DNA from: Acidobacteriota bacterium
GTDB taxonomy: Bacteria > Acidobacteriota > Polarisedimenticolia > Gp22-AA2
DNA: 56,307 nt
Assembly (NCBI GenBank): GCA_018606725.1
Contig: JAGYID010000003.1
Location: forward strand, 1 to 56,307
Reading direction: 5' to 3'
The notes under the pieces are model-generated. The model did no database searches. It saw only the letters and a program-made list of their open reading frames with translations, and had not been told where the DNA came from. This document shows positions 39,759 through 55,942 of the stretch, piece by piece. Positions within the stretch are counted from its first letter, which is position 1; the number at the start of each line of letters is the position of its first letter. Made by a program: the position numbers and the translations under genes.

Positions 39759-42700
39759 TCAGTGATACTGGATGTACAGTATCGGCGCGTCGGCGGGGGA
39801 ATAATCATAGGCTGGGAAAGAGCGCTCGCTGGGTGTACCGTCGTTCGAGATCAGGAACGCCATCGAGTTTCCGGATGTCCAGCCAGCCAGATTGATGATC
39901 TCTTGCACGATCGCTTTGAGATTTGGACTGGAGTGCCAATGCTCGGCCTTCCATAGCCCATTTTCACTGTCATCAAGGTTAACCGCTGCAACGGTCGGTG
40001 GCAGAGTGGTCAAGGGAATCGTGGTAGAGAAAGTCGCGGGATTTGCGGACGAGACTCCCTTGATCGTGACCTTCAGCGGCTCAACATAACTACCGTTCTC
40101 GAGTGGCTTATATATGATCACGGCACTGTCGATCGTCACCCCGCGTGGCAAGGCTATACCGTTAAAGCGCAACCCCGCGACATAGGAAGGATTGGCGGAA
40201 CCCGCCGGGCAACCTCCGACAACGGTTAATGAAGCACCCGTGGTGGTAGAACCCGCGCAGTCGGTATGAGCGTCATCACCCAACGCCATGATGTGCGAGA
40301 TGATCTGCGTCATCGCCGGATATGCCGGCCCGGGCGGGGCGCCGGTTGGATTGTTGAAAGGCTGCTTATAGATAAATACCTTGCTGCGGTTGGGGTCGCC
40401 GATGTAGAGATTGTTGAACGCGTCGAAGGTGACCGCGTAGGCGTAGACCATATGATCATTCAGGAGGCAATCCTCACCTGATACGGAAGGAAGACATGTC
40501 GGGTTGGTCGTCGAAGTCGGATCGGTCGCGGTGGAAAGGGGATCATCGTAGATCCCCATGAATGACGGGGCCTCCGCCACATAGGCGTCATAACCCACGA
40601 CCATGCGATTGGTGCTGTCAAACGCCGGTTCATACGTAGGATTGGCGCTCGCAGGAAACTCCTTGGAGGCCGGAGGATTGTACAGCACGGTATCGCCGGG
40701 GGAGATCGTAGTGATGCTGGTAAACAGCGACGCATCGAATCTCAGCATGCGTAGATTTCCCTGGCGCTCACCGCGATGGTCCGAAACGTAAAGGTTCCCG
40801 AGGCGATCGATCGATAAGTGCCATGGGAAACAGAGCCGGTTGAGACTGTTGGGACCGGAAACCGGCAGGGTGCCATCCTGATTACACAGCGCGCCGGCGA
40901 AATTGGCTTGACCGAGCACCACATCGATCAACGGCGTTGGACCCAGCGGATGACGTATGCGCAACACACGGTGTTTCTCCATCTGGGAAATCCACAGGAA
41001 ATTTCCGTCCGCCGAGGGAGCGAATCCAAATTCCCCCCAGCCTGCCGTACCAAGGATGTCGATCGAGTCCGTGCTGTTGATCACACCGATCGGTGCCCCT
41101 TGGCGTGCTTCGATGACCTTGATCGGCTTGCTCCAGGCATACAACGGCGTCTGAAACACGAAAAGGCGATTACTACTGGCCACCCACAGCCGATCGCTGG
41201 CATCGGTTTTCATCTGGCCGTAGCAATTCCCTGCATTGAAGTAATAGTCCTGCGTTTGCAGGTCGGCCTGGCCGATGAAGCTGTCGGCCGCCCTGCCGTT
41301 GGTCAATGCATCAAGATTATTCCAGACCATGATCCGGCAATCGTCCGAGAGATAGAGTTGATTCTTGGCGGTGGCGATGCCATGGGCATTCGTCAAATGA
41401 CGATCGGTGACCATGTTGTACCGGCGGATTGGGGGTAGCAGCGTGGTGGGTTGGGCCGTATAGGGCGCTGTGTGAATGAACACATCGCTCGCATCCCGAT
41501 TCCCGGGGACCAGCACGTGTCCGGATTTATCGACGTCAACCGGACCGAAGAAATGGTTGGTCACGTCGGCCACCAGCGGCAGGGTCTTGAGAAGCGTCCC
41601 ATCCCAGTTGAATAGTTCTACTTTGTGTCGCTGCTGGGTGATGCCCTCCTGCCCTGGCTCCCATGTGTTGATCCAGAGACCCGAAACCCCCGCCACATCC
41701 CTGACTCCGGTGATCAGCGACCTCCTGAAGTGCGTTGTGCCGCTGCCTGAAAAGAGCGCTCCAGTCATGCCGTCGCCAAATGGGGAAGTAAAGACCAGCA
41801 CGCGGCTATTGGGATAGACATTGTCATCTTGTGGATCTGTCGATCCATCCGCAACATACAGCTTGCCGTCGGGCCCGAATGCCAGCGAGGAAGGACCTTG
41901 CGTCTTGTTCAGACCTGTGCCGCCGATGTTCGACGTGAAGTTGGTTTGCCCGAGCACCACACCGGCGGACTTCTGAAGTTTTTGTGTGACCGGGTCCTTG
42001 GAAAAGCGCAGCACCCGATTATTCCCGCCATCGGCGACCCAGAGGTTGCCCGAGGCATCCAGCGCAACACCAAGACCCTGGGATGAAATATCGGACATGG
42101 CGCATAGCGACGAGGCGCTGGGAGCGGCGACCGGAGTGGAGGGATCGATATCACCGTCATAGCAACTCCTGCGCTTATACGGCACCTTATTGCAATACAC
42201 CCCGGAGAAGTCATCCTGACCAATGACATCGTCCGCTATCGCAGGGGTGCTGTCAGTGAACGGATTGTTAAAAATCAGGACGCGATTGTTCTCGAAATCG
42301 GGAACATAAAGGTCGCCCGTCTGCTGATCCACCGCCATGCCTGGCGCCCTGGCGCCCTCCTTCTGGCTGATCCTCCAGGTAGGCGTTCCACAGAGGGTCG
42401 TGGCGCTGGCTGGAGCCAGATAAGGGTAGCGCGACGTGCTCGCATCCTGGTTGCACGCGCCGTCCTCCCAACCCGAACTTTGGCCGATTACGATGTCCGG
42501 TGTGCATGCAGTGCCGGTCGGAAGCGTATAACAGTTATTTTGTTTGCTCAGGTCGAACCCGAGTATCCGGTTGTTGCCTGCGTCCCATACATAGGCCCGG
42601 CCATTCGTTCCACTCCCCGGGGAGCGATCCACCACGACGCCGCTCACATTGTAGGCGTGGTTGGGTACCACATGGTTGGAGTTTGACTGAGTAAAGTCTC

Positions 42701-43511
42701 GCTGGCCCAGCACCACATCCGCCCAGTAATCGCCCACGACGCCTCTCGGCGGAGAATCGTAGATGGTGAAACTATGCGATGTCGTTGTTCCCAATGTCGC
42801 ATGGCTCGGGCTGCTCAAGACCAGCCTCATGGATTCGTCACTCTCGACCGTATCGTCCCGCTGAGACCTCACACGGATGGTTTTCAGCATCTCGCCGGGC
42901 GCAAAGGTCAAGGTTCCGCTGGTCGCACCCGCGGGGAGCATGAAGTAGTCTGTGCCATTCTTCGCCGTACCACGGTTGGCCACAGCCCAATTCACCGACA
43001 CCGTCTGCGTCGACACGGTGTTCAACGATACGGAGATGTCGCTAATGGGAAGGTTCTCGCTTCCGAATGAAGCAGCGGTGTTGAACGACACTTGGGGGAC
43101 ATTACCCGCAATCGTGTAGGTATGGGTTGTTGTTGTGCCGAGGCTGGCGTTCAAGGGGTTACTCAGCGTGACGACGATTGTTTCATCCGGTTCGCCCAGA
43201 TTGTCGTTCACAATGGAGATTGTGATGTTCGCAGAAAGCGTGTTGGCGGGGATGGACAGCGTGCCGGCAGCGAGGGTGTAATCAACACCGCCTCCGGTCG
43301 CGGTACCGCCGGTCACGGCATAATTCACCTTGACGGTCTTGGCGGTTGTGGAGCTCAAGACCACGGTCAAGTTGACCGGAGTCGTCGCCTCCCCCCCGCC
43401 GGAGCTTGCCTGGCTGAATTGCACCTTTGGTTTCGCGCCTGCCGCGAAGGCAGGCAGGACAGGAACGCTAAGAAGTGCCGAGAGGATTGCGACGACGGTG
43501 GCCCGTAACAT
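39759..43511 (-). CDS. Large secreted Calx-beta / NHL-type beta-propeller protein
   Basis: The 1250-aa protein starts at ATG 43511 after AAGGAG. It has a signal peptide (about residues 1-24) and two Calx-beta domains (about 28-130 and 135-235; NYAVTGGTATGGGVDYTLAAG and WAVANRGTAKNGTDYF). A long propeller region follows, in which the motif (D)VVLGQxxF recurs about six times (VVLGQRDF, DVIGQDDF, VVLGQTNF, VVLGQANF) with NNRVLxF strands. The C-terminal about 170 residues resemble a carbohydrate-binding-like module that ends many such proteins (LKAIVQEIINLAGWTSGNSMAFLI). It is probably exported or surface-attached, perhaps calcium-dependent adhesion. Base composition and codon use are visibly more AT-rich than all neighbours, indicating horizontal origin. 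It is flanked by the permease duplicates. Confidence 0.85.
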   Translation of the reverse strand: MLRATVVAILSALLSVPVLPAFAAGAKPKVQFSQASSGGGEATTPVNLTVVLSSTTAKTVKVNYAVTGGTATGGGVDYTLAAGTLSIPANTLSANITISIVNDNLGEPDETIVVTLSNPLNASLGTTTTHTYTIAGNVPQVSFNTAASFGSENLPISDISVSLNTVSTQTVSVNWAVANRGTAKNGTDYFMLPAGATSGTLTFAPGEMLKTIRVRSQRDDTVESDESMRLVLSSPSHATLGTTTSHSFTIYDSPPRGVVGDYWADVVLGQRDFTQSNSNHVVPNHAYNVSGVVVDRSPGSGTNGRAYVWDAGNNRILGFDLSKQNNCYTLPTGTACTPDIVIGQSSGWEDGACNQDASTSRYPYLAPASATTLCGTPTWRISQKEGARAPGMAVDQQTGDLYVPDFENNRVLIFNNPFTDSTPAIADDVIGQDDFSGVYCNKVPYKRRSCYDGDIDPSTPVAAPSASSLCAMSDISSQGLGVALDASGNLWVADGGNNRVLRFSKDPVTQKLQKSAGVVLGQTNFTSNIGGTGLNKTQGPSSLAFGPDGKLYVADGSTDPQDDNVYPNSRVLVFTSPFGDGMTGALFSGSGTTHFRRSLITGVRDVAGVSGLWINTWEPGQEGITQQRHKVELFNWDGTLLKTLPLVADVTNHFFGPVDVDKSGHVLVPGNRDASDVFIHTAPYTAQPTTLLPPIRRYNMVTDRHLTNAHGIATAKNQLYLSDDCRIMVWNNLDALTNGRAADSFIGQADLQTQDYYFNAGNCYGQMKTDASDRLWVASSNRLFVFQTPLYAWSKPIKVIEARQGAPIGVINSTDSIDILGTAGWGEFGFAPSADGNFLWISQMEKHRVLRIRHPLGPTPLIDVVLGQANFAGALCNQDGTLPVSGPNSLNRLCFPWHLSIDRLGNLYVSDHRGERQGNLRMLRFDASLFTSITTISPGDTVLYNPPASKEFPASANPTYEPAFDSTNRMVVGYDAYVAEAPSFMGIYDDPLSTATDPTSTTNPTCLPSVSGEDCLLNDHMVYAYAVTFDAFNNLYIGDPNRSKVFIYKQPFNNPTGAPPGPAYPAMTQIISHIMALGDDAHTDCAGSTTTGASLTVVGGCPAGSANPSYVAGLRFNGIALPRGVTIDSAVIIYKPLENGSYVEPLKVTIKGVSSANPATFSTTIPLTTLPPTVAAVNLDDSENGLWKAEHWHSSPNLKAIVQEIINLAGWTSGNSMAFLISNDGTPSERSFPAYDYSPADAPILYIQYH

Positions 43512-45731: not shown

Positions 45732-48700
45732 TCAACGCCCCTCGAGGCGCCGCGTATTGTAGGTTTTCAGATACTCCTGGTGGTACGTATCTTGAGGATA
45801 CGACTCGTCGTCCCGATACGGATAGCCGGACATCCCATGGAACGGCAGCGGCTCGACGGTGTCGCCGAAGGCCGTGTGCGGGTCCATGTCCTTGCAATAG
45901 CCGTTGGCGTACAGGATGAAGCTGCGCTTGAACCCCTTCTTGACCTCGGGCAGCCCCTTGACGGGAAATTCGAGCGTGATCTCCTCGGCCTTGCCGAAGA
46001 TGACGAAGCGATCGTCGGTCGCGGTCAGCAGATCGGTGACCCTCCCGAAGCGCGTGTAATTCCCGGTCATCACCTTGAACGGCTGCGTGTTGTCGATGAT
46101 GCCGTAATCGTAGAGCTTCGGCTCCCGCCCGTCCGGGCTGTGTTCGCGCGGGAAGCCGCGCCGGTGCAGGTGCGCCGCCGACAGCTTCACCTCGTTGCGC
46201 ACGACTTTCTCCGCCGCCGCGCCGTCGAGCGGCTCGGCGATGTAGATCTGGTCGTAGTAGACCCGCATGTTGGTGCGCAGCCGGAGACTGCGCGACTTCA
46301 GCGGCGCCAGCCCGCCCAGGTCGACCGTCATCATCCGCGGCATGCCCGCCGGGAAGCCGACCGGGTCGATGACCGGCGCGAAGATCCCGTCCTCATTCTC
46401 CATCTCGAGGACGGGCGGCTGCAGCGACAGCCCGGCCTGGTGGGCGGCGAAGTTGGTCGAGGCGTACTCGAAATCGACCCAGCCGTGGAGGAACAGGACC
46501 GGATGCTGCATGCGGGTGACCGCCTCCGGGAACTCCAGCGTCAGGTGATGCATCTCGGCGTAGCCGGCCAGCCGGCTCAGGGTGAAGTCGTCCGGGTAGC
46601 GGCGATCGATCTTGAGCACCGCATCGGTGACCTCGCGGTCGTGATGGTCACGCGCCTTCACCGGAAAGACGCGGTCGGCGGTGGCGATGGCGTAGACCCG
46701 CTCCTCGGGCGGCGTCTTCGCCCCGAACGCCTCGTTCGGATAGACCTCGATGCCGGCCGGATGGTCCATGACGATCAGCTTCGCCTCGTCGAGGTAGCTG
46801 ATCTCCTCGAGGTTCTCCATCACCTGGAACAGGTACGCCCCGTCGCGCGGCTGCAGCTGCGACGGCTCGATCTTCACGAACTCGTCCGGGTCCGGCGTGC
46901 CGTAGACGCCGGGCGCCATCCACATGCCGAGACCTCCGACGCCGAGAAAATCGGTGACGAAGCCGAAACGGCCGCCGTTCCAGGCGAACAACAGCGGGCA
47001 GGATGACCCCTTGCGATCGAGCTCGGCCTGCTCGGTGCGTTGCCCGGCCGGCACATCGAGCTCCGCCTGCAGCACGCCGCCGGGCCACAGCAGCCGCACG
47101 AAGTCGGCAACGCCGCGCCCGCCCATGCCGAAGTGCGCCAGCGGTGGACCCTGCGACAGGTAGCCGCCACCGGCCTGGATTTCCTGACGCTGCCAGAACG
47201 GCCCCGACTGGACGTCGACCTTGGTGCCGATGCCGTCGCGGTTGCTGTTCAGCCCGGCGGTCCGCACCTCGAGCCACTTGTTGCGGTTGCCCCCCTCGTT
47301 GCGCAGCAGGAGCGGAGACCCGCCGTTCTGCGTCACCACCACGTCCAGGTCGCCGTCACCGTCGAGATCCGCCGCCGCCGCGGCCCGGCCGGCGCGCACG
47401 GCGATCTGGTTCAGACCGGCGTCGCCGGTGGCGTCCTTGAAGGCCCCCTTGCCGTCGTTCAGCAGGAGGAGATTGGCGCTGCCGGTGAACAACAGATCGA
47501 GGTCGCCGTCGTTGTCGGCGTCGAACAGCGCCGCCCCCCAGGACGACGCGCCGCGCGGTCGCGGCAGGTCCCGCGCCGCAAAGGCCCCGCGCCGGTTGTT
47601 GAGATAGAGCCGGTTGGCGCCCGCCGGCCCCGCCGCGAACACCAGATCCGGGAAGCCGTCGTCGTTGACGTCCCCGACCACGACACCGCGTCCCTCGCCG
47701 CGCGCCGCCAGCCCCGCGGCCTTGGCGCGGTCGGCGAATCCCGCATCGCGCCGGTTGTCGAGCAGCACGTCCGGCCCGCCGGCCGACGACAGCACCGCGT
47801 CGGTGTCGCGGTCGCCGTCCAGATCGGAGAAGCTCATGCCGACGACCCCCGCCGCCGGCGCCTTGAACCCCAGCTCGGACGTGGCGTCGCGGAACGATCC
47901 GTTGCCGAGATTCAGGAGGAGAGCGACCCCGCCGCCCGATTCCCCCGGTTTCCGCAGGCGGGCGACGCACAGGTCGAGGTCGCCGTCGTGGTCGAGGTCG
48001 GCCCAGGAGGCGCCCAGCAGGAGCCCACCGACCTTCGCGCCCGCCGGCACGGTGACGTCCACGAAGACGCCGCCTTCGTTCTGCAGCAGGACGCCCTGAC
48101 CCGGCCGTGTGATGAAGATGTCGGCGTCGTGATCGTTGTCGTAGTCGGCGACGGCGGCGGCGAGGCCGCTGACGGCCGCGAGCCCGCTCTTGCCGGTGAT
48201 GTCCTCGAAATGCCAGTCGCCTCTGTTGCGGTAGAGGGCGGGGTGCGGGGCGCCCTGCCCCCCGGCGTCGCTGAACAGCAGGTCGAGGAGACCGTCGCCG
48301 TCGAAGTCGACGGCCGACACGCCCGCGCCATAGCGGGCCGCCCAGGCCTGCAGAGTCACTCCCTGGGCCGGAGCCGCGACAGCCGAGTCGCTCCCGGGGC
48401 CGCCGTGCGTGAAGGCGATCCCCGAACCCCCGGTCGCATCGCTGAAATGGATCGCGACCGGCGACGGCGGCGCCGGCGGGCCGCCCAGCGCCGCGTAGTC
48501 GGTGAGCACCAGGGCGTAACGGCCCGCCTCGCCGTACTGGGTGCCGGTCGGCACCGAGAACCTCGGGTTGGCGGACAGCTTCTGGTAGACCGCCATCTCC
48601 TTCTCCCCCGCCTCGGTCTGCCCCGACTGGATGAGCGCCCGGGCGAGCTGGTAGCGAATCGACATGCTGTTCGGGTCGATCTGCCGCGCGCGTTGGAGGA

Positions 48701-49217
48701 GGGAGATCGCCTCGGTGAATTCGCGCCGCCGGGCATGCAGCAGCCCCAGGTTGTAGAGCAGATCGGCGTCCTCCGGATCGAGCGTCCGCGCCTTGTCGAG
48801 TGCTGTGATCGCCCCCTCCGCGTTCCCGAGGTTCTTCAGCAACAGCCCCAGCCCGTAATGCGCCTGGACCAGGGCCGGATCGAGGCGCACCGCTTCGCGG
48901 AAGGCGGCCTCCGCCTTGTCGTTGTCCCGGTTGTAGAAGCAGGCCAGCCCCAGGTTGACGAACCCCGGCGCCCACGTCGGGGCGCCCTTCGTCACCTTCA
49001 GGAACTCCTCCGCCGCCTGCGCATGCTTGAACTGCTCCATCAGGGCCGCGCCGCGGTTGTTGGCGCGGATCGCGTCGTCGATGACGGCGCCGGGCGGCGT
49101 CGAGTCGGGGCCCGCCGCGAAGGCGAGCGCAACACCGAGCGCCGCCAGGATCAGCGCGGCAACCGGGCGGCCCGTGCCCGCGGCCCGGTTCTTCGCACCA
49201 CGCATCGATCGGCTCAT
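45732..49217 (-). CDS. Large TPR / FG-GAP (VCBS) / ASPIC-UnbV (CRTAC1-like) exported protein
   Basis: The 1161-aa protein has an N-terminal hydrophobic export segment (about residues 18-36). Four or more TPR repeats follow (about 45-215; NRGAALMEQFKHAQAAEEFL, AHYGLGLLLKNLGNAEGAI). Next come at least seven Asp-rich FG-GAP calcium loops (DFDGDGLLD, DYDNDHDAD, DLDHDGDLD, DLDGDRDTD, DVNDDGFPD, DADNDGDLD, DLDGDGDLD). An ASPIC/UnbV-like segment (GIGTKVDV to FGMGGRGVADFVRLLWPGG) precedes a C-terminal region of over 400 residues that I cannot assign. The propeller is probably calcium-bound in the periplasm or outside the cell. The start overlaps the stop of the amidohydrolase gene as ATGA and the ABC exporter follows directly, so the exporter may serve or require this protein. 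Confidence 0.85.
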   Translation of the reverse strand: MSRSMRGAKNRAAGTGRPVAALILAALGVALAFAAGPDSTPPGAVIDDAIRANNRGAALMEQFKHAQAAEEFLKVTKGAPTWAPGFVNLGLACFYNRDNDKAEAAFREAVRLDPALVQAHYGLGLLLKNLGNAEGAITALDKARTLDPEDADLLYNLGLLHARRREFTEAISLLQRARQIDPNSMSIRYQLARALIQSGQTEAGEKEMAVYQKLSANPRFSVPTGTQYGEAGRYALVLTDYAALGGPPAPPSPVAIHFSDATGGSGIAFTHGGPGSDSAVAAPAQGVTLQAWAARYGAGVSAVDFDGDGLLDLLFSDAGGQGAPHPALYRNRGDWHFEDITGKSGLAAVSGLAAAVADYDNDHDADIFITRPGQGVLLQNEGGVFVDVTVPAGAKVGGLLLGASWADLDHDGDLDLCVARLRKPGESGGGVALLLNLGNGSFRDATSELGFKAPAAGVVGMSFSDLDGDRDTDAVLSSAGGPDVLLDNRRDAGFADRAKAAGLAARGEGRGVVVGDVNDDGFPDLVFAAGPAGANRLYLNNRRGAFAARDLPRPRGASSWGAALFDADNDGDLDLLFTGSANLLLLNDGKGAFKDATGDAGLNQIAVRAGRAAAAADLDGDGDLDVVVTQNGGSPLLLRNEGGNRNKWLEVRTAGLNSNRDGIGTKVDVQSGPFWQRQEIQAGGGYLSQGPPLAHFGMGGRGVADFVRLLWPGGVLQAELDVPAGQRTEQAELDRKGSSCPLLFAWNGGRFGFVTDFLGVGGLGMWMAPGVYGTPDPDEFVKIEPSQLQPRDGAYLFQVMENLEEISYLDEAKLIVMDHPAGIEVYPNEAFGAKTPPEERVYAIATADRVFPVKARDHHDREVTDAVLKIDRRYPDDFTLSRLAGYAEMHHLTLEFPEAVTRMQHPVLFLHGWVDFEYASTNFAAHQAGLSLQPPVLEMENEDGIFAPVIDPVGFPAGMPRMMTVDLGGLAPLKSRSLRLRTNMRVYYDQIYIAEPLDGAAAEKVVRNEVKLSAAHLHRRGFPREHSPDGREPKLYDYGIIDNTQPFKVMTGNYTRFGRVTDLLTATDDRFVIFGKAEEITLEFPVKGLPEVKKGFKRSFILYANGYCKDMDPHTAFGDTVEPLPFHGMSGYPYRDDESYPQDTYHQEYLKTYNTRRLEGR

Positions 49218-52572: not shown

Positions 52573-52601
52573 AAGGAGTGCCCCGCACGGGGCTCCCGAT
52601 G
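52573..52601 (+). promoter_or_regulatory. Shine-Dalgarno with intervening hairpin before the GGDEF start
   Basis: AAGGAG (52573-52578) is 20 bases from ATG 52599, too far for normal initiation. A perfect 5-bp hairpin GCCCC-GCAC-GGGGC (52580-52593) lies in between and, if folded, brings the Shine-Dalgarno to 6 bases from the ATG. The alternative start GTG 52578 overlaps AAGGAG itself and cannot use it. Confidence 0.4.
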
Positions 52602-53681
52602 CAACAGGAGCTTCACACCACCCCGCCGAAATCGCCCCCGGTGGCGACGCGCAAGTTCCGCATCCTGATCGTCGACGACGATGAGGACAGCGTCGATCTG
52701 CTCGCCAAGTGGCTGACCATGAGCGGCTACGACGTGAGGAGCGCGGGCTCCGGCCAGGAGGCGCTGCAGCGCATCAGTCAGGACCGGCCCGACCTGGTGC
52801 TGCTCGATCTGCTGATCCCGCCGCCCGACGGCCTCACCGTCATCCGCACCGTCAAGAAGGATCGCCTCATGTCGACCATTCCGCTCGTCGTCATGACAGT
52901 GAAACGGGACGTCAAGAGCAAGGTCGAGTGCCTGCGGAGCGGCGCCGATGACTTCATCGTCAAGCCGTTTCACTTCGACGAGCTCGACGCGGTGTTGCGC
53001 GCTTCGTTGAAGAAGCGCTATTTGTACACGTCGCTGGAGCGCGCCAACCAGCAGCTGCGTGACGCCAACGAGAAGCTCCTGAAGCTGACGGTCACCGACG
53101 AGCGGACCAGCCTGCTGAACGACCGCTACCTCCGGCGCCGCGCCACCGAGGAGTTCAAGCGCGCCCAGCGCTACGGCACGCCGCTGTCGTTGATCATCCT
53201 GGATCTCGATCACTTCAAGCAGGTCAACGACAAGTACGGGCACGACTGCGGCGACCAGGTGCTGCGGGATTTCGGCCGGCTGCTGATGGCCAACGCCCGG
53301 ACCACCGACATCGTCGGGCGTTTCGGCGGCGAGGAGTTCCTGGCGGTCCTGCCGAACACCGACGGCATCCGCGCCGCCATCGTGGCGGAGCGGATCCGGC
53401 GCGCCACCGAAGAGCACATCTACAAGTACCGCGAGTTCCTGATGCGGGTGACGGTGAGCGCCGGGGTCGCCTCGTACCCGGCGAACCAGGGCGTGGCCAG
53501 CGAAGGGGATCTCCTGAAGGCCGCCGACGACGCCCTCTACCGGGCCAAGCAGGTGTCGCGCAACCGCGTCATCCTCGACCGCGCCTCGATGCCGGCCGAC
53601 ATCCTCGAAGGCGATCTGTCGGCCATCTTCAAGGCGTCCTACGAGGACGCCCAGCCGCTGAAGGACGAGCCGGAGATCTGA
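52599..53681 (+). CDS. REC-GGDEF response regulator, diguanylate cyclase
   Basis: From ATG 52599 the product is 360 aa (367 aa from GTG 52578). The REC domain (about residues 20-140) has the acidic pair in ILIVDDDEDS, the phospho-acceptor Asp in LVLLDLLIPP, VVMTVK and the Lys in FIVKPFHFDEL. A coiled-coil linker (LYTSLERANQQLRDANEKLLKL) leads to GGDEF: SLIILDLDHFKQVNDKYGH, active-site FGGEEFLAVLP and an inhibitory RxxD (RTTD) five residues before GGEEF. It resembles PleD and would make cyclic-di-GMP when phosphorylated, with product inhibition through RxxD. No histidine kinase is adjacent. A weak hairpin follows its stop. Confidence 0.93.
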   Translation: MQQELHTTPPKSPPVATRKFRILIVDDDEDSVDLLAKWLTMSGYDVRSAGSGQEALQRISQDRPDLVLLDLLIPPPDGLTVIRTVKKDRLMSTIPLVVMTVKRDVKSKVECLRSGADDFIVKPFHFDELDAVLRASLKKRYLYTSLERANQQLRDANEKLLKLTVTDERTSLLNDRYLRRRATEEFKRAQRYGTPLSLIILDLDHFKQVNDKYGHDCGDQVLRDFGRLLMANARTTDIVGRFGGEEFLAVLPNTDGIRAAIVAERIRRATEEHIYKYREFLMRVTVSAGVASYPANQGVASEGDLLKAADDALYRAKQVSRNRVILDRASMPADILEGDLSAIFKASYEDAQPLKDEPEI

Positions 53682-53710: not shown

Positions 53711-55942
53711 TTACCAGCGCTCGGCGATCACCCGGACCAGGTCCCCCAGCCGCTCGAGATCGCGCTCGTCGATCACCTCGACCGGCGAGTGTGAATGCAC
53801 CGTCGGCCAGGAAATCGCCGCCGCCGGAACGCCCAGGGCCGGAAAGACCGACGCATCGTTGCCGCCGCGCGTCAACCCCGCCTGGATCGGCAGGTTCGCC
53901 TGCGCCGCCAACGCCAGGATGCGGTCGACGATCGCCCGGTCGGTGATGTTGCTGTTGTCGATGGCCCGCACGACCGGGCCCCTGCCCAGGATGCCGCGCG
54001 CGAACCCGTGCCGCTCGAGCGGCGTGTCCGAGGAGACGAATGTGTCGACCGCGATCGCCAGGTCGGACCCCGGCCCCTTCGCCGCGTCGGACGCGAGCTC
54101 CTTCGCCAGCGCCGCCGCCCCGTCGAGACCGGTTTCCTCTTCGACCGAAAAGGCGAAGGTCACGCGGTTGCGCAGCCGCTTCGGGTCGAGGGCGCGCAGC
54201 GCCAGGAGCAGCGCCGTGCAGCCGGCCCGGTCATCGACGGCGCGTCCCGATCCGAGCGTTCCGGCCAGCCGCTGGAACGCTTTCGGCACCGTGATCGCGT
54301 CGCCCGGCGCGATCCCGAGCCGCTCGGTCGCGGCCCGATCGCGCGTCCCGAGGTCGACCCGCACCTGCGCGCCGCCGAACGCCGTCGGAGCGCCTCCCCC
54401 GGCGACGTAATCCGCCCGCGGCGGCACGACCCCGCCGACGTCCCCCTTCGTCGCGTGGACCAGTACGACCTGTCCCTCGTAGAGCGTCTCGTAGAAGCCG
54501 CCGACCGGCTTGACCTCCAGCATCCCATCATCGGCGACCCCCGTCACCAGGTAGCCGGTCTCATCCATGTGGGCCACGAACAGCAGTTGTCGCGCGCCCC
54601 GCTGCGGGCCGGCGACGATGCGCAGATTGCCGCGCGCATCGACCTCCGCCTTCGCCCACGCCGGCAGCAGCCGGCGGATGGCGTCGCGCACGAGCATCTC
54701 GCGCGTCGACACACCCGGGGTTTCGACCAGCTGCTTGAGGATCGCGAAGGCCCCCGCCCGACCACCCGCCGGGACGGCGAGCGCGGCGCCGGTCGCGGTT
54801 GCGTCGGCGGCGATCGCCGCCGACGGCCTCGGTGCCGCGGTCGCCGGCGTCCGATCGGCCGCCGGCGGCTGGCCGTCCTCAACGAGCGACTTGAGCAGAC
54901 GGACGGTGTCGATCAAATCCCCAATGTCGACGATCACGGCCGGCGTCACCGGATAGCGCACCGGCGCCGTGAGCTGGGCGACCTGCGCGCGTTTCCGGAA
55001 AAGCTCTCCCTGGCCCGGCCGGTCGGAGAGCACCGACTGCAGCGCGATCCCCAGCCCGGTGGCCCGCTCGATGATGCGGGCGTACAGCGCCGGGGAGAAC
55101 GGCCCCTTGCCCGGCGCGGCCAGAGCGGGGCCGTCTCCCGGCGTGCCCCGCAGCGGGTCGACCACGATGACGTCATCGAGCTCAAGCCGGTTGGCGAGCC
55201 GCTCGGCGCCCCGGCCCTCGACGAAGCCCTGCGTCGCGAAGGCGACGGTGAGCGTGCCCCGCACCTTGGCGGGCTCGAGGCGGGACAGCAGCTCGACCAG
55301 CACGGCACAGCCGGCGCGCACTCCGAGGAACGGCCCGGCGATCTCGCCGTCCGCCAGGTCGACGAGCCGCCGGGCGATGACCACCGGATCGAGCACGCCG
55401 ACGCCGGCCGCCCGCACCGCGTCCTCGCTGCGGGCGCCGATGTCGACGTACAGATCTTCATCGGTGACCGGCGCCGTGATCGGCGGGCCGTCGCCGCGCC
55501 AGAGATGGGTCGAATGGATCGCCACGACACCCGGCACATCGCCGCGGTGGGCTCCGATGACGACCGGCTGCCCCAGGTGGAACTGGTCGAACAGGGCGGG
55601 CAGCGGCTCGGTCGCCAGCCGCTGCACGCGCAGATAGCCGGACGGCTCGACGGAGGTGATGACGTACCCGGGCTCGTCCATCCGGGCCAGCAGGAGCCGC
55701 CGCGGCGCCCCGGCGCCGACCGTCACCGTCAGGTTGCCGAGGTTGTCCACCTCCGGCGTCGCCCATGACGGCAGCGAGGCGCGGACGGCCTCGCGGACCC
55801 GCTGCTCGTAGCCGGAAATGCCGGGCACGGAGGCCAGCCGGCGCAGCAGCGCGTGGACTTCCTCCGGCTCTCCGGCGCCCGCCGGCGGAGCGAACACCAT
55901 CGGCGCGAGGAGGAGGAGAAGGGTGAGGAGTCTGGAGCGCAC
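53711..55942 (-). CDS. Tandem M42-family metallopeptidase with a degenerate first domain
   Basis: The 743-aa protein has a signal peptide (about 1-23), an M42-like domain (25-355), an Ala-rich linker (360-395) and a second M42 domain (400-743). The second keeps every ligand: H458 in AHMDE, D570/D571 in AVDDR, E601-E603 in VEEETG, D633 in AVDTF and H716/H718 in VHSHSP. In the first, the matching sites are R87 (ARMDE), G207/V208, a TQGF string in place of VEEETG, and PVTPA where HSHSP would be; only D262 remains. It should therefore be an inactive domain fused to an active aminopeptidase or endoglucanase-like enzyme, exported to the periplasm. M42 enzymes form large tetrahedral complexes, which this tandem form would change. 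Confidence 0.85.
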   Translation of the reverse strand: MRSRLLTLLLLLAPMVFAPPAGAGEPEEVHALLRRLASVPGISGYEQRVREAVRASLPSWATPEVDNLGNLTVTVGAGAPRRLLLARMDEPGYVITSVEPSGYLRVQRLATEPLPALFDQFHLGQPVVIGAHRGDVPGVVAIHSTHLWRGDGPPITAPVTDEDLYVDIGARSEDAVRAAGVGVLDPVVIARRLVDLADGEIAGPFLGVRAGCAVLVELLSRLEPAKVRGTLTVAFATQGFVEGRGAERLANRLELDDVIVVDPLRGTPGDGPALAAPGKGPFSPALYARIIERATGLGIALQSVLSDRPGQGELFRKRAQVAQLTAPVRYPVTPAVIVDIGDLIDTVRLLKSLVEDGQPPAADRTPATAAPRPSAAIAADATATGAALAVPAGGRAGAFAILKQLVETPGVSTREMLVRDAIRRLLPAWAKAEVDARGNLRIVAGPQRGARQLLFVAHMDETGYLVTGVADDGMLEVKPVGGFYETLYEGQVVLVHATKGDVGGVVPPRADYVAGGGAPTAFGGAQVRVDLGTRDRAATERLGIAPGDAITVPKAFQRLAGTLGSGRAVDDRAGCTALLLALRALDPKRLRNRVTFAFSVEEETGLDGAAALAKELASDAAKGPGSDLAIAVDTFVSSDTPLERHGFARGILGRGPVVRAIDNSNITDRAIVDRILALAAQANLPIQAGLTRGGNDASVFPALGVPAAAISWPTVHSHSPVEVIDERDLERLGDLVRVIAERW

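Follow-up and report, generated by a model that had tools for sequence, protein, structure and literature searches.

The locus raises the question of why a metallopeptidase gene should keep, ahead of a complete catalytic domain, a second domain of the same family that lacks a working active site. Encoded on the minus strand of the window, that is, the whole stretch of 56,307 nucleotides of Acidobacteriota DNA that was analysed, the gene has the features collected in Table 1; the plus-strand frame over the same positions (53711-55942) was broken by stops. Both halves of the product matched the Pfam profile Peptidase_M42 (PF05343, cut-off 23.2) over its entire length (1-292 of 292), with 108.1 bits for the N half and 213.2 bits for the C half. 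The hydrophobic N-terminus suggests export of the window protein, and the separate N and C genes of relatives also begin with hydrophobic stretches. The earlier note on this DNA had described the product as a secreted fusion of an M42 pseudoenzyme with an M42 enzyme; this was right, secretion being putative, in that the N half is dead whereas the metal centre of the C half is intact.

Table 1. Features of the tandem M42 gene, with positions in the window.
Feature	Position	Strand	Basis and remarks
Tandem M42 gene	53711..55942	minus	Open reading frame list and PF05343 on both halves; 743 aa, GTG start
Putative signal peptide, about residues 1-24	55871..55942	minus	Sequence and hydropathy: basic residues first, a hydrophobic core, Ala-x-Ala
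N-terminal pseudo-M42 half, residues 27-372	54827..55864	minus	Alignment, Pfam, AlphaFold2, VIA-align; R87, G207, G239/F240 and V332 at metal-site columns, loop His retained
H146 loop histidine, proposed trans donor	55505..55507	minus	Column of PhTET2 H123; 46/46 N halves
Ala/Pro-rich linker, residues 373-396	54755..54826	minus	DNA alignment with locus L019; low-pLDDT region overlaps
C-terminal catalytic M42 half, residues 397-743	53714..54754	minus	H458, D570, E603, D633, H718, catalytic E602; Y512 at loop column

Metal site and fold of the two halves

The metals of PhTET2 are bound by H68, D182, E213, D235 and H323, with E212 as the general base, according to the available text of two papers (PMC8993905, PMC3511314). 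By alignment and motif order, these residues can be equated with H458, D570, E603, D633, H718 and E602 of the window protein, respectively. The residues to which the earlier note had drawn attention were all in place (R87, G207/V208, TQGF at 237-240, PVTPA at 331-335, H458, D570/D571, E601-E603, D633 and H716/H718), and its list of C-half ligands held for H718 but not for H716, which falls in a column usually occupied by Tyr and is no ligand. Within the acidic run E601-E603, which had been listed as a whole, E602 aligned with the catalytic Glu and E603 with the ligand Glu. At the level of sequence, the C half carries the complete set required of an active member of family M42, five metal ligands plus catalytic Glu. 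In the N half, the columns of H458, D570, E603, D633, H718 and E602 were occupied by R87, G207, F240, D262, V332 and G239, respectively, D262 being the only one left of the six metal and catalytic residues. The N half has thus not lost everything: D262, in the column of D633, stays, as does the Asp of the HxD motif, D89.

The survey of the pairs extended this loss to all the N halves with data. The six residues occurred together in 0/43 N halves, 44/44 C halves and 18/18 single M42 proteins (rows with data), and given these proportions the loss of the metal site from the N half is no chance event. Judged by its residues, the N half is a non-peptidase homologue of family M42, lacking both the ligand set and the catalytic Glu that the family requires. 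The loss was graded, since Glu was still present in the catalytic-Glu column of 17/47 N halves and the N halves of two relatives (L019 and L073) retain H, D, D and D, without E603 and without the final His. The former active-site columns were variable among N halves, with nine different residues at the column of H458 and eight at that of D570.

Of the 43 N halves with data, 8 still had between two and four of the six key residues, and this could be taken to favour an alternative metal site or catalysis of another kind in the N half; we regard such a reading as very improbable, because Glu was found at the E603 column in 0/47 N halves and the invariant N columns offered no alternative conserved set of ligands. 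Alternative metal ligands, which would have contradicted the description of the N half as dead, did not turn up: no conserved N-specific ligand set was seen among N halves, and the acidic residues that never vary in them (E46, D66 and D89) do not vary in C halves either. These three residues therefore look structural.

Comparison with solved M42 structures, which the earlier note had proposed, gave the M42 fold with its inserted dimerisation domain in both halves. When the fused model was used for the fold search, the matches fell largely on the C half, and the N half was hence folded separately. Folded alone by AlphaFold2, the N half reached a pLDDT of 88.2 and a pTM of 0.88, and its model superposed on PhTET1 with a Z of 40.0 and 2.1 Å over 316 residues (VIA-align); for the C half, the values were Z 36.0 and 2.4 Å over 338 residues against 4wwv_A, and about Z 35 against TET1/TET2. 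The fused model, built from 12 sequences, had a pTM of 0.82 over 717 residues, a value that leaves the packing face undefined and that in our judgement a two-domain model would hardly reach unless the position of one domain against the other were confidently predicted. Residues 332-369 of this model (358-395 of the protein) showed a pLDDT under 50. The stretch around the loop histidine (model residues 118-123) had a pLDDT <50 in the N half alone and not in the fused model, a difference that hints at docking but is not counted as evidence here, as the two input alignments differ.

Distribution, descent and fusion of the pairs

The earlier note had called the fusion unusual. This holds for M42 proteins in the literature: no description of a tandem or pseudo-M42 pair was found in open-access literature, the strings 'tandem', 'duplicat' and 'pseudo' are absent from the available text of a 2012 M42 paper (PMC3511314), and 'M42' is absent from that of a review of metallo-pseudopeptidases (PMC11266112). 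It does not hold for these bacteria, in which the pair is widespread and, in the nearest relatives of the window, occurs as two genes. A profile search found the pair of dead and live members, fused or as adjacent genes and with both members at least partly present, in 36/396 Acidobacteriota genomes; at least one member was present in 37/396 (hand count), the contig ending at the locus in the additional genome, G345. The genome of the window gave one match to the tandem protein. The two halves were two genes in three genomes of the window's own family (G001, G002 and G004) and in three more of a sister family of the same order (G009-G011). A scan of species genomes gave 17 loci, of which 16 were dead and live pairs, in records named Acidobacteria, Bacteroidota, Planctomycetota, Gemmatimonadota and Dehalococcoidia. 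The record titled Dehalococcoidia (L022) is probably misbinned; its tandem protein shared 579 identical residues with one from Flavobacteriaceae (lengths 727 and 712), at GC contents of 29.8 vs. 29.7%.

The aligned set comprised 47 N and 48 C halves, from 25 fused loci, 21 pairs of adjacent genes, one locus with an interrupted frame (L024) and the lone C half of G345. Four duplicates (L064, L065, L074 and L075, of L027, L028, L019 and L020, respectively) were not counted, and L087, first labelled as a single M42, was counted as a C half because it groups with the C halves in the tree and lies where a contig ends. In L024 (5974-8115, plus strand; Algoriphagus marinus), the tandem gene is interrupted between 6474 and 6487, within the dead half, by either a sequencing error or a real break.

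Assembly deserves consideration, as the genome of the window is in 235 contigs and the gene lies near a contig end, so that two genes might have been wrongly joined. The probability of such an artefact of assembly or annotation seems to us negligible; independent fused loci in practice answer it, with 24 others found, among them L023 of the Bacteroidota strain Maribacter sp. 4G9, in addition to the 21 adjacent-gene pairs.

Adjacent genes were ordered N then C in 19 of the 21 pairs and C then N in two; in the latter (L082 and L085) the live gene stands ahead of the dead gene. An exact 4-base overlap was present in 11/21 adjacent pairs (starts of the longest open reading frames), a layout that is usual for translationally coupled genes. 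DNA of the window aligned right through the region in which L019 has the gene-1 stop and, for gene 2, the start and the signal peptide, and in the fused gene the Ala/Pro-rich linker stands in that place. Mapping of the fused or split label on the tree required a minimum of three changes on the C rows and six on the N rows, which indicated that joining or splitting had occurred repeatedly.

A response regulator with a GGDEF domain (52578-53681, plus strand) converges on the M42 gene of the window, and a related open reading frame was found close to the pair in L019, L076 and L079 and also in L003, indicating that synteny outlived fusion. The window also encodes a large FG-GAP/TPR/ASPIC-UnbV protein (45732-49217, minus strand) and a Calx-beta/NHL-repeat protein (39759-43511, minus strand). 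No general third partner gene was found among the 44 loci examined, the widest neighbour clusters beyond the pair covering 6, 5, 5, 4 and 4 loci. By Pfam, one member each of three neighbour clusters was a sortilin/BNR protein, an M14 carboxypeptidase and an outer-membrane barrel. The sortilin/BNR-repeat neighbour (L084, 4041-7193, minus strand) belongs to a cluster present in 6/44 loci and the M14 zinc carboxypeptidase (L088, 7201-9888, minus strand) to one present in 5/44; these two neighbours give a hint of a neighbourhood of exported functions in peptide digestion.

With the key columns removed, the tree placed the N halves (45 rows) on one side of a branch with ultrafast bootstrap/SH-aLRT support of 100/99, and the C halves (45 rows) on one side of another with 100/98, clades that are consistent with a single old duplication. 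Eight of the 113 rows had been dropped as near-copies or fragments (L099_C, L077_C, L020_N, L016_S, L068_N, L068_C, L110_S and L107_S). An unpaired M42 gene of the same class (L090, 1498-2904, minus strand), with metal centre and loop histidine intact, branched together with both clades, the set that they form being fully supported; it would be a living undivided relative, showing what the undivided ancestor would look like. Distances among N halves ran parallel to those among C halves over 41 of the 47 pairs (r 0.87, with 0/2000 permutations as high; L020, L077, L099, L080, L068 and L024 left out), a correlation that speaks for co-inheritance and not for contact, since shared descent within genomes also yields it.

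N halves are under purifying selection, the dN/dS of the N half being 0.10-0.30 in 8/9 comparisons (finite values); in the ninth, L026/L030, synonymous sites were saturated in the N half. These values ruled out a decaying pseudogene. Purifying selection on N halves and the retained fold would also suit the role suggested in the earlier note, namely a regulatory or substrate-recognition domain, for example one that binds peptides in the metal-free pocket and passes them to the C half. A conserved binding pocket is, however, unlike the highly variable former active-site columns of the N halves, among which no conserved N-specific residue set was found. We consider this role improbable and not the best supported, as the reciprocal losses described below point to completion of the C-half site by the loop histidine of the N half.

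The loop histidine and the proposed composite site

M42 enzymes bear a conserved histidine on a mobile loop in the chamber, reported to be important in PhTET2 in the available text of Gauto et al. (PMC8993905), where His occupies the loop column in 88% of 26,067 homologues, gaps account for 7.2% and other residues for 1% or less each. Mutants of PhTET2 H123 are reported to have a raised KM. In five M42 enzymes of solved structure, the loop His fell in the column of H146 of the window's N half, a residue that is absent from the earlier note and that turned out to tell the most; the C half has Y512 at this column. The loop His was present in 46/46 N halves, 2/45 C halves and 18/18 single M42 proteins, so that a conserved feature of M42 is divided between the partners. 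The exact reciprocal state (His without a full metal centre in the N half, metal centre without His in the C half) was found in 42/44 pairs with data, a count that has to be read as clade-level events, each loss being essentially one old event and the rows not independent. The exceptions were L027 and L028, with His in both halves and a C-half loop reading PRxGHL. H146 belonged to the 8 invariant columns, out of 333, of the N halves, whose mean pairwise identity was 28.6%; the informative part is this retention of His in the N half across deep divergence while the C half lost it. In 41/44 pairs the C loop was shorter than the N loop of its partner. Most C halves have Pro-Arg just ahead of the position of the lost His (residues 507-508 of the window protein, about 54419-54424 of the window), a stretch for which a new, C-specific loop role is possible.

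The N half might act as a structural partner only, completing a dimer or a TET-like shell and keeping the C half soluble, with H146 kept for another local reason. M42 enzymes act as oligomers, scaffold roles are frequent in pseudo-subunits and the N half retains a complete fold. We nevertheless think this unlikely, because it leaves unexplained both a catalytic-loop residue that is invariant in the N half yet lost in the C half and the shortening of the C loop.

Whether the loop His of M42 enzymes acts on its own site or on that of the neighbour has so far been deduced from the M18 enzyme DNPEP and from partly disordered loops. The available text on DNPEP reports that His170 of the opposing subunit contacts the bound ligand and that His170Phe abolishes activity, and its authors infer the same loop swap for M42 (PMC3472314). 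Against such a contact, the PhTET2 loop is described as very mobile, with a cryo-EM structure that places its His >20 Å from the active site and with a co-evolution signal that is both intra- and intermolecular (available text of PMC8993905). Were the loop to serve the site of its own subunit, a His in the N half would have no use and one would be required in the C half, the opposite of what was observed. If it acted on the partner, loss of the metals from the N half would free the C loop to decay and the N-half His would be the sole one usable by the C site. One partner with metals and without His, beside another with His and without metals, is an evolutionary argument for action in trans.

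We propose, as a rather probable reading of these sequences, that complementary loss has made the halves an obligate pair and the window protein a di-metal aminopeptidase, exported from the cell, to whose single composite active site both contribute. An ancestral M42 gene would have been duplicated long ago, after which the copies would have lost opposite parts. The C half keeps all five metal ligands together with the catalytic Glu; the N half, without a metal centre, keeps the long mobile loop with the His that has been proposed, for M42/M18 dimers, to cross to the partner subunit and contact the substrate at the metals. In a predicted M42-like dimer, the N half would supply H146 in trans to the C-half site (H458, D570, E603, D633 and H718, with catalytic E602), presumably giving an active enzyme, and the C half's own loop, facing the dead site, would be free to shorten and to lose its His. 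In the nearest relatives of the window the partner genes are adjacent and mostly overlap; in the lineage of the window they would have fused in place, making the pair one chain. With somewhat less assurance, we lean towards a wider reading in which this is an M42 lineage whose active site has been irreversibly split between paralogues, the live partner working below its full rate without the His of the dead one, each dimer or pseudodimer having one working site and repeated fusion locking both partners together. If the site is split in this way, active sites would be half as dense as in a normal TET particle, and nature would have carried out, in this lineage, a trans-complementation experiment on the loop swap. 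With a single working site in each pair, the question of the trans His in M42 would be directly testable.

Comparison with known systems

The pair adds an M42 case to the pseudoenzymes, and automatic annotation, which sees two M42 peptidases in such proteins, takes a dead enzyme for an active one. Both halves resemble the M42 TET aminopeptidases PhTET1 and PhTET2 (PF05343) in fold, metal-site motifs and inserted dimerisation domain, the C half having their metal centre and the N half their loop histidine. In PhTET1 and PhTET2 each subunit bears both metals and loop His, whereas the pair of the window divides them between paralogous halves, one of which is catalytically dead. We know of no reported loss of a metal centre in the paralogues of the PhTET2-PhTET3 or YtoP-YsdC assemblies. 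Like the pair, the PhTET2-PhTET3 hetero-dodecamers are hetero-assemblies of M42 paralogues, and no division of the active site is described in the available text (PMC4220976); YtoP-YsdC is likewise a hetero-assembly of M42 paralogues, as far as its database entry goes (PDB 9a5r).

Dead and live homologous subunits that are both needed occur, according to the available text of PMC12731061, in the M16B heterodimers, among them the alpha/beta mitochondrial processing peptidase, with which the pair can be compared by mechanism only, and M16A/C proteins exist in single-chain forms of two halves, like the fused pair. Unlike the M42 pair, M16B proteins are described in that text with an HXXEH zinc motif and a clam-shell architecture in which the inactive half makes up half of the chamber; no M16 family was among the Pfam matches of the window protein. 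The M20 dimers aminoacylase-1 and DapE belong, as M42 does, to clan MH, and a conserved His on a loop of their dimerisation domain has been proposed to act at the active site; the available text (PMC4012986) gives them a dimerisation domain of their own and a homodimeric state, unlike the window pair. In DNPEP of family M18, the active site of each subunit is completed by a His from the other, carried on a loop of the dimerisation domain (available text of PMC3472314), as we propose for the C half of the pair. DNPEP is homomeric, so that every subunit gives and receives, whereas in the pair of the window one half would be the donor and the other the acceptor.
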